Below are positions 1,369 to 8,090 of a stretch of DNA of 25,385 nucleotides, piece by piece. Both the position numbers and the translations under genes were made by a program. Positions within the stretch are counted from its first letter, which is position 1. Every line of letters starts with the position of its first letter. The DNA is from a virus. Where the stretch lies: the IMG/VR virus record IMGVR_UViG_3300029309_000319, positions 1-25,385 of that record; one strand, given 5' to 3'. The notes below the pieces were generated by a model. It saw only the letters and a list, made by a program, of their open reading frames with translations, did not search any database and was not told the origin of the DNA.

Positions 1369-2241
1369 ATGTTTATAGAAGAAAATTCAAAACCAAATGA
1401 AAAACTAAAGGCTTGGTATCTTTTTACAGAGGATTTTATAGCAGGTACTCAGCATTTAACAAATGAGCAGGTTGGTATTTATATTAGATTGCTTTGTTGG
1501 AACTGGAATAAGCGTTGTATTGGTATACCAAGAGATGAAATGACATACCATAGAATAGCAAGTTGTATTACTGATAATGAGAAAAAATCTTGCACAAAAA
1601 TATTAAATGAATTTTTTCATTTAGTAGATGAAGTTTTTCAAAACGAAAGACAATTACAAGAATACTTGTTTATTACCAGAAGAATAGAAGCGTCTAAGCA
1701 AAATGGTAGATTAGGTGGTAGACCAAAAAAACCTAGACCAGAACCTAAAGCTAACCTAGGGGGTAACCTAGACAAAAGCCCCCTAACCCTAACCCCTACC
1801 CCTACCAATAAACCTAAAACCAATATAAATAAAACTTTCTCTCTTTTTTGGAATAAAGTGTCTTATAAAATTGGAAAAGGTGTTTCTGAAAAGAATTATG
1901 CTAAACTAGAAAAAGACTGGATAGGTAAACCAGAAGTATTAGCTGATATGTATAATAAATATTACAATTCGTTAGGAGATAAAAAGTTTGCTAAACACCC
2001 TGCTTTTTGGTTGTCAGATAAACGCTACTTAGATGAAGCACCAAGCCAGACAAACGATAGAATAGACGAGTATGCTTTTTATACAGAGAAATTTGTGGAA
2101 ATAATACAAAAGAAGAAGCCTAATTCTGCTATCTCAAAGATTGCTCAAAACAAACCAGATATGGTCAAAAAAGCAATCAATGAAAACAAGTTCACAAGAG
2201 ATGAAGCTATACAATATCTGGATATGGGGAGTTGGTTATAA
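1369..2241 (+). CDS. DUF1376-type replication protein
   Basis: A 290-residue protein. Residues about 10-100 match the DUF1376 (YdaU-like) pattern: KAWYLFTEDFIAGT, then NEQVGIYIRLLCWNW and PRDEMTYHRIA, followed by the basic GGRPKKPRPEPK stretch. This domain usually starts phage replication-initiator-like proteins, often beside helicase loaders. A low-complexity Pro/Thr/Asn linker (about residues 118-148) joins it to a second helical domain with the signature FAKHPAFWLSDKRYLDE. I start it at ATG 1369, which has GGAG six bases upstream, rather than the ATG at 1351, which has no ribosome site. The linker DNA carries repeats described separately. A role in replication is inferred from the family. 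Confidence 0.8.
   Translation: MFIEENSKPNEKLKAWYLFTEDFIAGTQHLTNEQVGIYIRLLCWNWNKRCIGIPRDEMTYHRIASCITDNEKKSCTKILNEFFHLVDEVFQNERQLQEYLFITRRIEASKQNGRLGGRPKKPRPEPKANLGGNLDKSPLTLTPTPTNKPKTNINKTFSLFWNKVSYKIGKGVSEKNYAKLEKDWIGKPEVLADMYNKYYNSLGDKKFAKHPAFWLSDKRYLDEAPSQTNDRIDEYAFYTEKFVEIIQKKKPNSAISKIAQNKPDMVKKAINENKFTRDEAIQYLDMGSWL
1731..1818 (+). repeat. Iteron-like repeats and C-rich run in the DUF1376 gene
   Basis: Inside the linker-coding part of the DUF1376 gene, ACCTAG/ACCTAA occurs at 1731, 1743, 1754, 1766 and again at 1812; the first four are 12, 11 and 12 bases apart, about one helical turn. TAGGGGG at 1757-1763 and CCCCCTA at 1779-1785 form a perfect 7-bp inverted repeat. From 1779 to 1802 there are four C runs of 5, 3, 4 and 4, which on the - strand fit a G-quadruplex pattern. 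This could be a replication origin placed as in lambda O, or just repeats forced by a Pro/Thr/Leu-rich linker. Confidence 0.4.
2227..2240 (+). promoter_or_regulatory. Ribosome site with AUA start codon
   Basis: GGGAGTTGGTTATA: a strong GGGGAG ribosome site (2226-2231), six bases, then ATA at 2238-2240. The ATA overlaps the upstream TAA as ATAA, like the ATGA junctions seen elsewhere. The only canonical alternative is TTG at 2232, which has no spacing from the ribosome site. The same context recurs at 22931-22944 with 12 of 14 bases identical. Confidence 0.45.
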
Positions 2242-2453
2242 AGATAGAATTTGATAATGGGCTTACTGCCGAACAACAAGCAGAAGTAGATGCTAAATAT
2301 GAGGAAGCTATGCAAATTGTTAAAGAAAAAGACAGTAAGCTATATCAAAAAATGATGAGTGAAGTTATAACTTATGAAAAGTTTATGAAAATCAAAGAGT
2401 TAGACGATAAAGCTATCAAAGTAGATCAAGATAATCAGATGAATTTGTTTTAA
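2238..2453 (+). CDS. Small acidic protein with clamp-binding-like C-terminus
   Basis: A 71-residue protein (73 if the TTG at 2232 is used). It begins (M)KIEFDNGL, has a helical, Glu/Lys-rich middle and ends in DNQMNLF. The final Q-M-N-L-F fits the bacterial sliding-clamp (DnaN) binding consensus QL(S/D)LF, placed at the free C-terminus after a flexible acidic stretch, as in many clamp partners. It follows the DUF1376 gene with overlapping ends, which fits a role at the replication fork. I do not recognise the rest. The start is unusual: the best-placed codon is ATA 2238. The gene is well supported; the function is inference. Confidence 0.65.
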   Translation: MKIEFDNGLTAEQQAEVDAKYEEAMQIVKEKDSKLYQKMMSEVITYEKFMKIKELDDKAIKVDQDNQMNLF

Positions 2454-4036: not shown

Positions 4037-5451
4037 TGAATAAAGAGTTCTTACAGAAAAAACACGATTTATGGCACGCTAATATCGAAAGATGGGAGTT
4101 TTATATCCGTAGCTATTTAGGTGGTGATGATTATAAAAATGGATATTACCTGCATAGATATATTTTAGAAACTCCAGAGGAATATGATGCAAGAATAAGG
4201 CATACGCCAGTAGACAATCATTGCAAGAATGTTGTTCAAATTTATACAAGTTTTTTATGGAGAGTTTCACCAACTAGAGATTATGGAAGTTTAGATGGTA
4301 ACCCACAACTTTTATCATTTTTAAAAGATGCAGATTTAGATGGTAGAAACTTTAATACTGTAATGCGAGAAGTTCAGATGAACGCTAGTATCTATGGTAA
4401 TTGTTGGGTAATTGTTGATAAACCACAATCAAATGCTAATACAAGAGCAGAAGAATTAGCCCAAGATATAAGACCTTATATTTCTATTTACACGCCAGAA
4501 AATGTTATTAACTGGAATTATGTTAGAAGCCCTAGTGGTAGATTTTATTTAGATATGTTAGTTTTAGTTGAGGACATAAATTCAGAAAGAGCCATTATCA
4601 AAGTTTTTACAGAAGAAACTATAATGACTTATGAGTTTGAAGAATATGACAAAGAATATACAGAAAAAGAGCCAAAATTAATTGATGAAATACCTAATCC
4701 CATTGGTGTTATCCCTGCTGTTAATGTTTATAATCTTAGGGGAAATAAACGCCCTATAGGTATATCAGACCTTGCAGATGTATCTCATTTGCAACAATCA
4801 ATCTATAATGACTATAGCGAAAAAGAACAGCTTATTAGATTGGCAAACCACCCAAGTTTAGTTAAAACACCTAATGTTGAAGCAAGTGCAGGGGCAGGTT
4901 CAATTATTGAGATACCAGAAGATTTAGAAGCTAGTCTAAAGCCATATATAATTCAACCATCTGGTCAAAATTTAGATGGTATAATGAAATGTATTAATAA
5001 TAAAATAGATGCCATTGATAGAATAACACATATGGGAAGCGTAAGGGCTACTGGTACGCAGGTTGCTAGTGGAATTGCTTTACAAACCGAGTTTCAGTTA
5101 TTAAATGCTAAGTTATCTGAAAAAGCAGATTATTTAGAAAATGCCGAAGAACAGATATGGTCATTATTTGCTAGATGGCAAGATGCTCAGTTTGATGGTT
5201 CTGTAAACTATCCAGATACATTTGATCTAAGAGATTGGGCTAATGATTTACAATATCTACAGATGGCAAAAGCAAGTGGCATTAGATCAGAAACATTCAA
5301 CAAAGAAATCGATAAACAGATTGCAGATGCAGTAATTGATGATAGTGAAAAGATAAGAACAATAAATGATGAGATTGATTCATCAAGAACTGTAAGAGGG
5401 CAGTTTCAAACAACAGAAGTAGAGGGCGAAACAGTTGGCGAGGAAACGTAG
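4036..5451 (+). CDS. Portal protein, DUF4055-like
   Basis: A 471-residue protein immediately after the terminase, in the place of the portal. The N-terminal segments WHANIERWEFYIRSYLGGDD and TPVDNHCKNVVQIYTSFLWR, and the later PAVNVYNLRGNKRPIGISDL, resemble the DUF4055 portal family of siphoviruses. The portal forms the ring at one head vertex through which DNA is pumped and later leaves. I use ATG 4036 (TAATG overlap with the terminase stop, GAGGTGGAG just upstream) rather than the GTG at 4027. The 3' end overlaps a small basic gene by 17 bases in another frame. Confidence 0.9.
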   Translation: MNKEFLQKKHDLWHANIERWEFYIRSYLGGDDYKNGYYLHRYILETPEEYDARIRHTPVDNHCKNVVQIYTSFLWRVSPTRDYGSLDGNPQLLSFLKDADLDGRNFNTVMREVQMNASIYGNCWVIVDKPQSNANTRAEELAQDIRPYISIYTPENVINWNYVRSPSGRFYLDMLVLVEDINSERAIIKVFTEETIMTYEFEEYDKEYTEKEPKLIDEIPNPIGVIPAVNVYNLRGNKRPIGISDLADVSHLQQSIYNDYSEKEQLIRLANHPSLVKTPNVEASAGAGSIIEIPEDLEASLKPYIIQPSGQNLDGIMKCINNKIDAIDRITHMGSVRATGTQVASGIALQTEFQLLNAKLSEKADYLENAEEQIWSLFARWQDAQFDGSVNYPDTFDLRDWANDLQYLQMAKASGIRSETFNKEIDKQIADAVIDDSEKIRTINDEIDSSRTVRGQFQTTEVEGETVGEET

Positions 5452-5614
5452 AGTACCCAAAGATAAAAAAACCAAGATACCTAAAAAATATTTATCTGGT
5501 TTAAAAGGTGCTAAAAGAAGTGCTAGGGCTAATTTATTGAAAAGAATTAGTGCTTTATACAAAGCAGGTCTAAGAATACCCAGATCATTATTACAACGTA
5601 GGAACAGATCATAA
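5435..5614 (+). CDS. Small basic protein of marine phage type
   Basis: A 59-residue, strongly basic protein starting at TTG 5435 inside the portal end, with AGAGGG about nine bases upstream, and ending in a TAATG overlap with the next gene. It reads MARKRRVPKDKKTKIPKKYL, then a KRSARANLLKRISALYKAG segment. I recall this pattern (ARK-VP-DKK-PKKYL-Y-AG) from small proteins of marine phages, without a known function. It is the first of three small basic proteins between portal and head-morphogenesis genes; nucleic-acid or capsid association is plausible only by charge and position. Confidence 0.75.
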   Translation: MARKRRVPKDKKTKIPKKYLSGLKGAKRSARANLLKRISALYKAGLRIPRSLLQRRNRS

Positions 5615-6326: not shown

Positions 6327-8090
6327 ATGTCAAGGATATTAGAAAAACTAGCCGATCAACATGAAGAACGTATGATAAATGTTCTTTACAAATTAGAAGA
6401 TGACGTAATCAAAGAAGTTACAAAAGCCACAAAAGGGGAATTAGTTTCTCAAAGACTAGCTATACAGTTACAGCCACAATTAAGGCAGGTGATAGAAGAA
6501 AACTTTTTAGGTGAAGCTGATCTAATTATAAATGAAGAATATAACAAAATAGCTAAAGAGGTATTAGATAATTTTGGAAAACTTAATATACCTCAAAACT
6601 TTAAAAGTCTTACAGAAATAGATTTGCAAACTATTAACGCTTTGAAATATCAAAGTTTTTCTGGTTTTGAGGATATTGCAGAAAGATTTATTAAAGTTAT
6701 TAATGATGAGGTTTATCAAAGCACAATAGCAGGTAGACCATTTGACGATATGGTTTCTAATATTAGATCACACATAAATGGCGTTTACAAAAGGTCTAAT
6801 AGTGCAGAAATAAATGAATTAGTTGATTTCATAAATGAAAATAAGTTTGATTCAGCAAAAAAAGTACAAGTAGAAGATGCAATACGAAAATTACATACAC
6901 AATATGCGTCAGATAGGGCAGGAAACAACCTAAGACGATACGCAGGTCAAATAGCCCACGATAGCGTAATGCAGTTTCATGGTCAATTTACAGTAGCTAA
7001 AGCAAAAGAATCTGGAATTGATAAGTTTACATATACTGGCACATTAGTTAGAGATAGTAGAGATTTCTGCGTTGGTATGCTCAATAAAGTTCTTACTGAG
7101 GAACAAATTAGAGAAATATGGAATAGCAGGGGTTGGCAAGGTAAATCAACTGGCGACCCATTTATAGTTAGAGGTGGATATAGATGCAGACATACTTGGA
7201 TACCAACAGTAGAGGAAATCATAGACGAACAACCACCAGAGCCAGAAGTAGAGGAAACTCAACCAGAGCCACTTAAAAAAGGTCGTAAGTCAAGTTTAAA
7301 AAATCCAGTCAAAGAAGATGAAATAGATATAATTTCAAGTACACTTGTTGCTGACAGATTACAAAAACAAATAACTAAAAATGCAAAAGACGAAAGATAT
7401 GATATTGGCTCAAGGTTTAGAACAAGTAATGTCGGAAAAGTTACTGGGGTAGAGAAATTAGACGATGAAATAGCAAGTCAATTAAATGCAATAATGCAAG
7501 AATTAGATGATTTAGCACAATTATATAATGTTCCAAAATTGAGGTCTGTAACAGTAAGTGCTAAAAGACGAGCATTGATGTCAATGGGAGATGGAAACTT
7601 ATCTATAAATCAAAAATATTTTAATAGAAAAAATGTAGATGGTAGAACACAAAGAGATTTTAGAAATGCTTTTTTAGGAAAAGGTTATTATAAACCAGAG
7701 CAAGATTTAGCTAATCAATTTCCAAATATTTTAAACCCATCAAGATTAGTTAAATTAGAGAAAAAAAAGAAATCAGATAGTTGGGTAAGACCACACAATG
7801 CCTTTTATTATTTTGAAGATGAAATAGATAGATTTAGGAATATTCTTTATCACGAATTTGGACATCAAGTTCATCAAATGAAAAATAAAACAAAAGGTCT
7901 TTGGGATTTAGCCCCAATAGAAAATTCTTTAAGGCAAAAAGTAAGAAGCATTAATGGTGGGTCATCTAGATATTCTAATGCAAACACCAAAGAGTGGTTT
8001 GCAGAGAACTTTAGTTTATATCATATGGGTAAAGAAAATCTTGTAGACCCAAAATTTATAGAATTTTTAGAAAATGAGGTATTAAAATGA
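6327..8090 (+). CDS. MuF-like head protein with C-terminal zinc metallopeptidase
   Basis: A 587-residue two-part protein. Residues up to about 300 form a MuF/SPP1-gp7-like minor head domain: a helical N-terminus, LVRDSRDFC at 240-248, and the closing GGYRCRHTW at 283-291. A Pro/Glu/Lys linker follows (about 298-325). The C-terminal part has the zincin motif H509-E-F-G-H513, preceded by RNILY, with WFAENF (Glu556 or Glu560) as a likely third zinc ligand about 45 residues on. MuF proteins sit inside or at the portal of the head and some carry toxin or enzyme C-termini injected with DNA. The peptidase could act on head proteins or host targets. The fusion is seen; the target is inference. Confidence 0.88.
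   Translation: MSRILEKLADQHEERMINVLYKLEDDVIKEVTKATKGELVSQRLAIQLQPQLRQVIEENFLGEADLIINEEYNKIAKEVLDNFGKLNIPQNFKSLTEIDLQTINALKYQSFSGFEDIAERFIKVINDEVYQSTIAGRPFDDMVSNIRSHINGVYKRSNSAEINELVDFINENKFDSAKKVQVEDAIRKLHTQYASDRAGNNLRRYAGQIAHDSVMQFHGQFTVAKAKESGIDKFTYTGTLVRDSRDFCVGMLNKVLTEEQIREIWNSRGWQGKSTGDPFIVRGGYRCRHTWIPTVEEIIDEQPPEPEVEETQPEPLKKGRKSSLKNPVKEDEIDIISSTLVADRLQKQITKNAKDERYDIGSRFRTSNVGKVTGVEKLDDEIASQLNAIMQELDDLAQLYNVPKLRSVTVSAKRRALMSMGDGNLSINQKYFNRKNVDGRTQRDFRNAFLGKGYYKPEQDLANQFPNILNPSRLVKLEKKKKSDSWVRPHNAFYYFEDEIDRFRNILYHEFGHQVHQMKNKTKGLWDLAPIENSLRQKVRSINGGSSRYSNANTKEWFAENFSLYHMGKENLVDPKFIEFLENEVLK

Follow-up and report, generated by a model that had tools for sequence, protein, structure and literature searches.

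A putative AUA start codon at a conserved gene junction downstream of DUF1376 in a phage related to Pelagibacter phages

In a 25.4-kb phage sequence, a 71-codon ORF follows directly on a gene for a DUF1376 replication protein, and an ATA stands at the position where most related junctions have the ATG of the downstream gene. The ATA junction is present in other contigs and is no artefact. AUA at position 2238 is the best single explanation for the start of this ORF, a reading that we hold tentatively and a little short of an even chance. The conserved docking site around the junction and the missing ATG can be read directly from the sequences, and the N-terminal part of the encoded protein appears, on few changes, to be under selection. 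That translation begins with codon 2238, and not with TTG 2232 or a second ATA at 2244, and that it is coupled to the upstream gene, is inferred.

Results

The junction and its candidate start codons

The sequence studied, referred to here as the window, is the whole 25,385 nucleotides of the IMG/VR virus record IMGVR_UViG_3300029309_000319. It contains terminase, portal and capsid-type genes, and its large terminase shares 57-58% identity with the enzymes of the Pelagibacter phages HTVC026P, HTVC202P, HTVC112P and HTVC111P. The DUF1376 gene is followed by the 71-codon ORF and then by the small and large terminase genes. Further along, a TTG at 5435 (MARKRRVPKDKK) is a probable conventional start for the gene at 5435-5614, whose first 17 bases would overlap the end of the portal gene. 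The features of the junction, all on the + strand, are as follows.

1369..2241, + strand: gene for a DUF1376 / primosomal-type replication protein, with the docking site in its conserved 3' end (Pfam DUF1376, E 7e-12; PHROG primosomal protein, E 6e-18; 51 homologous loci)
2224..2241, + strand: docking site, ATGGGGAGTTGGTTATAA here and ATGGGGAGTTGGNTATGA elsewhere (pattern scans of IMG/VR and junction table)
2226..2231, + strand: Shine-Dalgarno-like GGGGAG, inside the conserved M-G-S-W codons of DUF1376 (sequence; duplex of -8.1 kcal/mol with an assumed anti-Shine-Dalgarno)
2232..2234, + strand: TTG, rival start codon, lying within the AGT TGG codons that are conserved in DUF1376; matches the ATG of L001 in an ungapped alignment
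2238..2240, + strand: ATA, preferred start codon, at the position that the ATG has in most other junctions
2244..2246, + strand: second in-frame ATA, rival start codon; aligns ungapped with the ATG in the majority of the distant family members
2238..2453, + strand: 71-codon ORF of the family 'DNGLTxEQQxxxDxxYE', with a helical N-terminal part and a variable linker (23 distinct members aligned; AlphaFold2)
2436..2450, + strand: C-terminal QMNLF, resembling the beta-clamp-binding motif QL(S/D)LF (23-member alignment; consensus from PMC9690074)

A check against the sequence found every position in the preliminary description to be correct (GGGGAG at 2226-2231, TTG at 2232 and ATA at 2238), and a GTT at 2235 stands between the two candidate codons. 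ATA 2238 lies on the DUF1376 stop codon TAA (2239-2241) in an exact ATAA overlap, and this had rightly been compared with ATGA overlaps used elsewhere in the window, of which there are five (at 8087, 11132, 14670, 15765 and 24579). The ATAA overlap alone is weak evidence, because any TAA after a codon ending in A will produce it. The frame of the ORF is open from 2205 and ends at TAA 2451-2453, 71 codons when counted from 2238; between 2205 and 2238 it holds neither ATG nor GTG, which makes TTG 2232 the only conventional start. If the start is at 2238, ATAA at 2238-2241 and GGGGAG at 2226-2231 within DUF1376 have the layout of an overlapping gene pair, and a start at TTG 2232 would also overlap the DUF1376 stop.

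L003, L004 and L002/L095 have this junction without a single base difference, and in L092/L034 it is almost unchanged. As it was found in four further IMG/VR contigs with four other dataset identifiers, an assembly error was rejected as the origin of the ATA.

A conserved docking site at the 3' end of DUF1376

Relatives of DUF1376 were found at 51 IMG/VR loci. The 3' ends of these genes carry a conserved site, GATATGGGGAGTTGGNTATGA, after which different phages have unrelated genes; GATATGGGGAGTTGG is present in most of them, and two bases further on there is usually an ATGA. Among the 29 distinct junctions of the TTR-GAY-ATG form, a count to which the window lineage (CTG-GAT) does not belong, 20 have an ATG precisely at the counterpart of 2238, ahead of unrelated genes. 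ATA at this position is followed by an ATG 2-5 bases later in 7/29, and in the other two TTG or TTA is followed directly by ATG. The window lineage (the window, L003, L002/L095, L004 and L092/L034) has ATA followed by AAG or AAA, with no ATG within reach. A second lineage without the docking ATG consists of L069-L072, where TTA ATT TTG follows the site (gene L069:922-1143).

The genes docked after DUF1376 include Mom-family DNA modification genes (L042:3379-4026 and L104:1902-2552; Pfam E 3e-37 and 5e-28) and a Vut_1-type transporter gene (L037:3379-3855; Pfam E 3e-7). Because such genes dock there too, the 3' end of DUF1376 looks like a slot for exchangeable genes, as a description of the pattern, the mechanism being putative.

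The open frame from 2205 could also point to a -1 frameshift inside the end of DUF1376, yielding a fusion protein. No canonical slippery heptamer was seen by eye, however, and the GGGGAGTTGG context is conserved ahead of unrelated genes that have their own ATG; a frameshift fusion, to which we give next to no probability, was rejected as being without support.

Ribosome-site strength

Duplex energies were calculated with an E. coli-type anti-Shine-Dalgarno sequence, which was assumed to hold for the host. On this assumption GGGGAG pairs at -8.1 kcal/mol and lies 6 bases before ATA 2238, giving this codon the best ribosome-site energy and spacing among the start candidates. TTG 2232 is less badly placed than had been claimed: GGGGAG does abut it directly, with a gap of 0, but GGAUAUGGG upstream of this codon forms a weak duplex of -4.0 kcal/mol with the same assumed anti-Shine-Dalgarno, much as at the ordinary genes at 2514, 5614, 6036 and 21876 in the window. 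The structures obtained by RNA folding of the region were all weak (-3.3 to -8.7 kcal/mol) and gave no ground for choosing among the candidates.

A start at TTG 2232, giving MVIKIEFDNGL and a 10-base overlap with DUF1376, would mean that the docking ATG was lost and that translation fell back on the in-frame UUG of a conserved W codon. UUG belongs to the conventional start codons, and the same phage probably uses it at 5435; it is generally a better start codon than AUA, and its output in E. coli is about 30% of that of AUG (PMC11497404), so this alternative stays strong, although we rate it below ATA 2238 and as rather less likely than not. Against it, the coding sequence of DUF1376 itself brings a TTG to most docking sites, also to those where the start is clearly an ATG. 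The homology of the docking site and the strength of the ribosome site favour ATA 2238.

N-termini of homologues

An alignment of homologous N-termini had been proposed as a check, in which an ATG on 2238 would count as support, and the outcome was mixed. Only L104 aligns ungapped with 2238, while other members match 2232, 2244 or 2235 (the last in L019-L021). In L001, whose protein is 94% identical, the ATG (MIKKIEFDNGL) aligns ungapped with TTG 2232, which speaks for a start there; the L001 copy of the ORF sits behind a different gene, however, and its N-terminus may have been recombined.

In the majority of the distant members the ATG aligns ungapped with ATA 2244 (MKYDNGL, MTYDNGL, MPFDNGL, MFLDNGL and MKFDNGL). 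A start at this second ATA, giving MEFDNGL, would agree with the ATG of most family members, but its distance of 12 bases from GGAG exceeds the usual one, even if the gap is also about 10-11 in L041 and L087, where members of the family are docked on DUF1376. We regard this start as quite improbable. A start at AUA 2238 thus has the equivalence with the docking-site ATG, the best ribosome-site energy and spacing, and the purifying selection described below on its side, and the mixed homologue N-termini against it.

Is the frame still a gene?

The frame is intact in the four ATA-bearing copies. Over the first 47 codons these copies differ by 6 synonymous and 4 nonsynonymous changes, ten changes only, of which 17-24% would be expected to be synonymous under neutrality (P 0.003-0.016, varying with kappa). 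Among the ATA copies other than the window, the changes are 6 synonymous and 1 nonsynonymous (P 0.0002-0.0012). When the whole ORF is taken, the signal is weak (P 0.03-0.2 for the window, L003 and L002), and L004, which has a different linker, shows a dN/dS near 1 against the window. The N-terminal part of the ORF thus appears, on few changes, to be under selection at the protein level and, because of the excess of synonymous changes in the first 47 codons, the ATA-bearing gene is probably still translated.

The frame could instead be a cargo gene in decay, deprived of its start and no longer translated to a useful degree. In L092/L034 the ATA-led frame is cut to 13 codons, so that most of the gene is lost, and elsewhere the slot is occupied by different genes; the gene is therefore dispensable. 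Decay of the window copy is nevertheless improbable in view of the intact frame in four ATA-bearing contigs, the synonymous excess and a C-terminal motif that is kept in these copies despite the change of linker.

Direction of the ATG/ATA change

A tree was built from 39 DUF1376 proteins. It places the ATA copies in a single group (support 100/100) with the ATG-bearing L001, L032/L110 and L036/L141, which are their closest DUF1376 relatives and keep the docking ATG. A change from ATG to ATA in the window lineage is likely on this tree, which supports the group but gives no order within it. The present sequence could have arisen from ATGA by a single G-to-A change to ATAA or from ATGATAAAG by a 3-base deletion, as either gives the same letters. 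Seven junctions have ATAA with a later ATG, and the ATA therefore need not descend from a start codon. Two pattern scans returned no close relative that has this junction with an ATG, and the seven other hits of one of these scans were unrelated sequences. Low-level translation had been suggested as the purpose of the AUA; it is no less likely that the lineage simply lost its ATG as a derived change.

A protein family with a clamp-motif-like C-terminus

In the family, with 23 distinct members, DNGLTxEQQ is conserved in the start region, the body is helical and the linker varies, while a Gln close to the C-terminus is invariant. AlphaFold2 predicted helices at residues 9-29, 31-40 and 44-50 of a 69-residue query, with a mean pLDDT of 72. 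No relative of the ORF was found in annotated phage records, PDB gave no meaningful match, and PHROG and Pfam gave no convincing family for its protein. A scan of GTDB genomes returned one relative, L149.

The bacterial clamp-binding motif QL(S/D)LF is found at C-termini (PMC9690074). The C-terminus of the ORF resembles it, and in 23/23 members the Gln is followed by x-x-[L/M/F] and then by a mostly hydrophobic residue, a relaxed form of the consensus; endings include QMNLF, QMEMLF, QIEMLF, QLEMNL, QYQLNL, QFDLF, QYQLF, QLEFF and similar. Because of this tail and the neighbouring replication gene, our comparison suggests, as a lead only, that the ORF product is a small protein that binds the sliding clamp of the host. 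Database matches speak neither for nor against it. The motif, known here from sequence, is the only thing that the family has in common with beta-clamp-binding proteins, with no sequence relative in PDB or PHROGs.

Discussion

The arrangement can be explained if the 3' end of DUF1376 acts as a ready-made coupled ribosome-binding site for exchanged small genes, in which the ATG of the incoming gene usually overlaps the DUF1376 stop as ATGA and the window lineage has ATA instead. Ribosomes would terminate DUF1376 on UAA 2239-2241, and GGGGAG would keep them in place with AUA 2238 close to the P site; a restart at this codon with low efficiency would give weak translation of the DNGL-family gene.

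Natural AUA starts behind strong ribosome sites have been described for infC, ccpN and citZ of S. aureus, with an output of about 10% (up to 30%) of AUG for ccpN and citZ (PMC13009471). The window resembles these in having a putative AUA start behind a Shine-Dalgarno motif, where a reduced output would also be expected. The S. aureus starts are bacterial and were mapped by initiation profiling and reporters, whereas the start in the window is deduced and lies in a phage gene overlap with a moderate ribosome site. Coupled overlapping gene pairs are common in prokaryotes, and the role of the Shine-Dalgarno sequence in them is variable (PMC6728339). The junction shares the stop/start overlap and the ribosome site within the upstream gene with the coupling described at ATGA and TGATG; it differs in that the overlap is ATAA, the overlapping start is not AUG, and coupling is putative. 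A search for literature on non-canonical starts in pelagiphages returned nothing.

Use of AUA 2238 would provide a phage example of a natural AUA start, and gene finders that accept ATG, GTG and TTG would call TTG 2232 and give a wrong N-terminus. In its fullest form, the explanation would be that one lineage switched its docking site from ATG to AUA and so keeps the output of a clamp-binding replication effector low and coupled, a case of natural start-codon attenuation in a marine phage; taken as a whole this is distinctly improbable. The sister phages with an ATG on the same ribosome site offer a matched comparison of start-codon strength, and the clamp-binding-like tail provides a testable function for an unannotated phage family located beside a replication gene.
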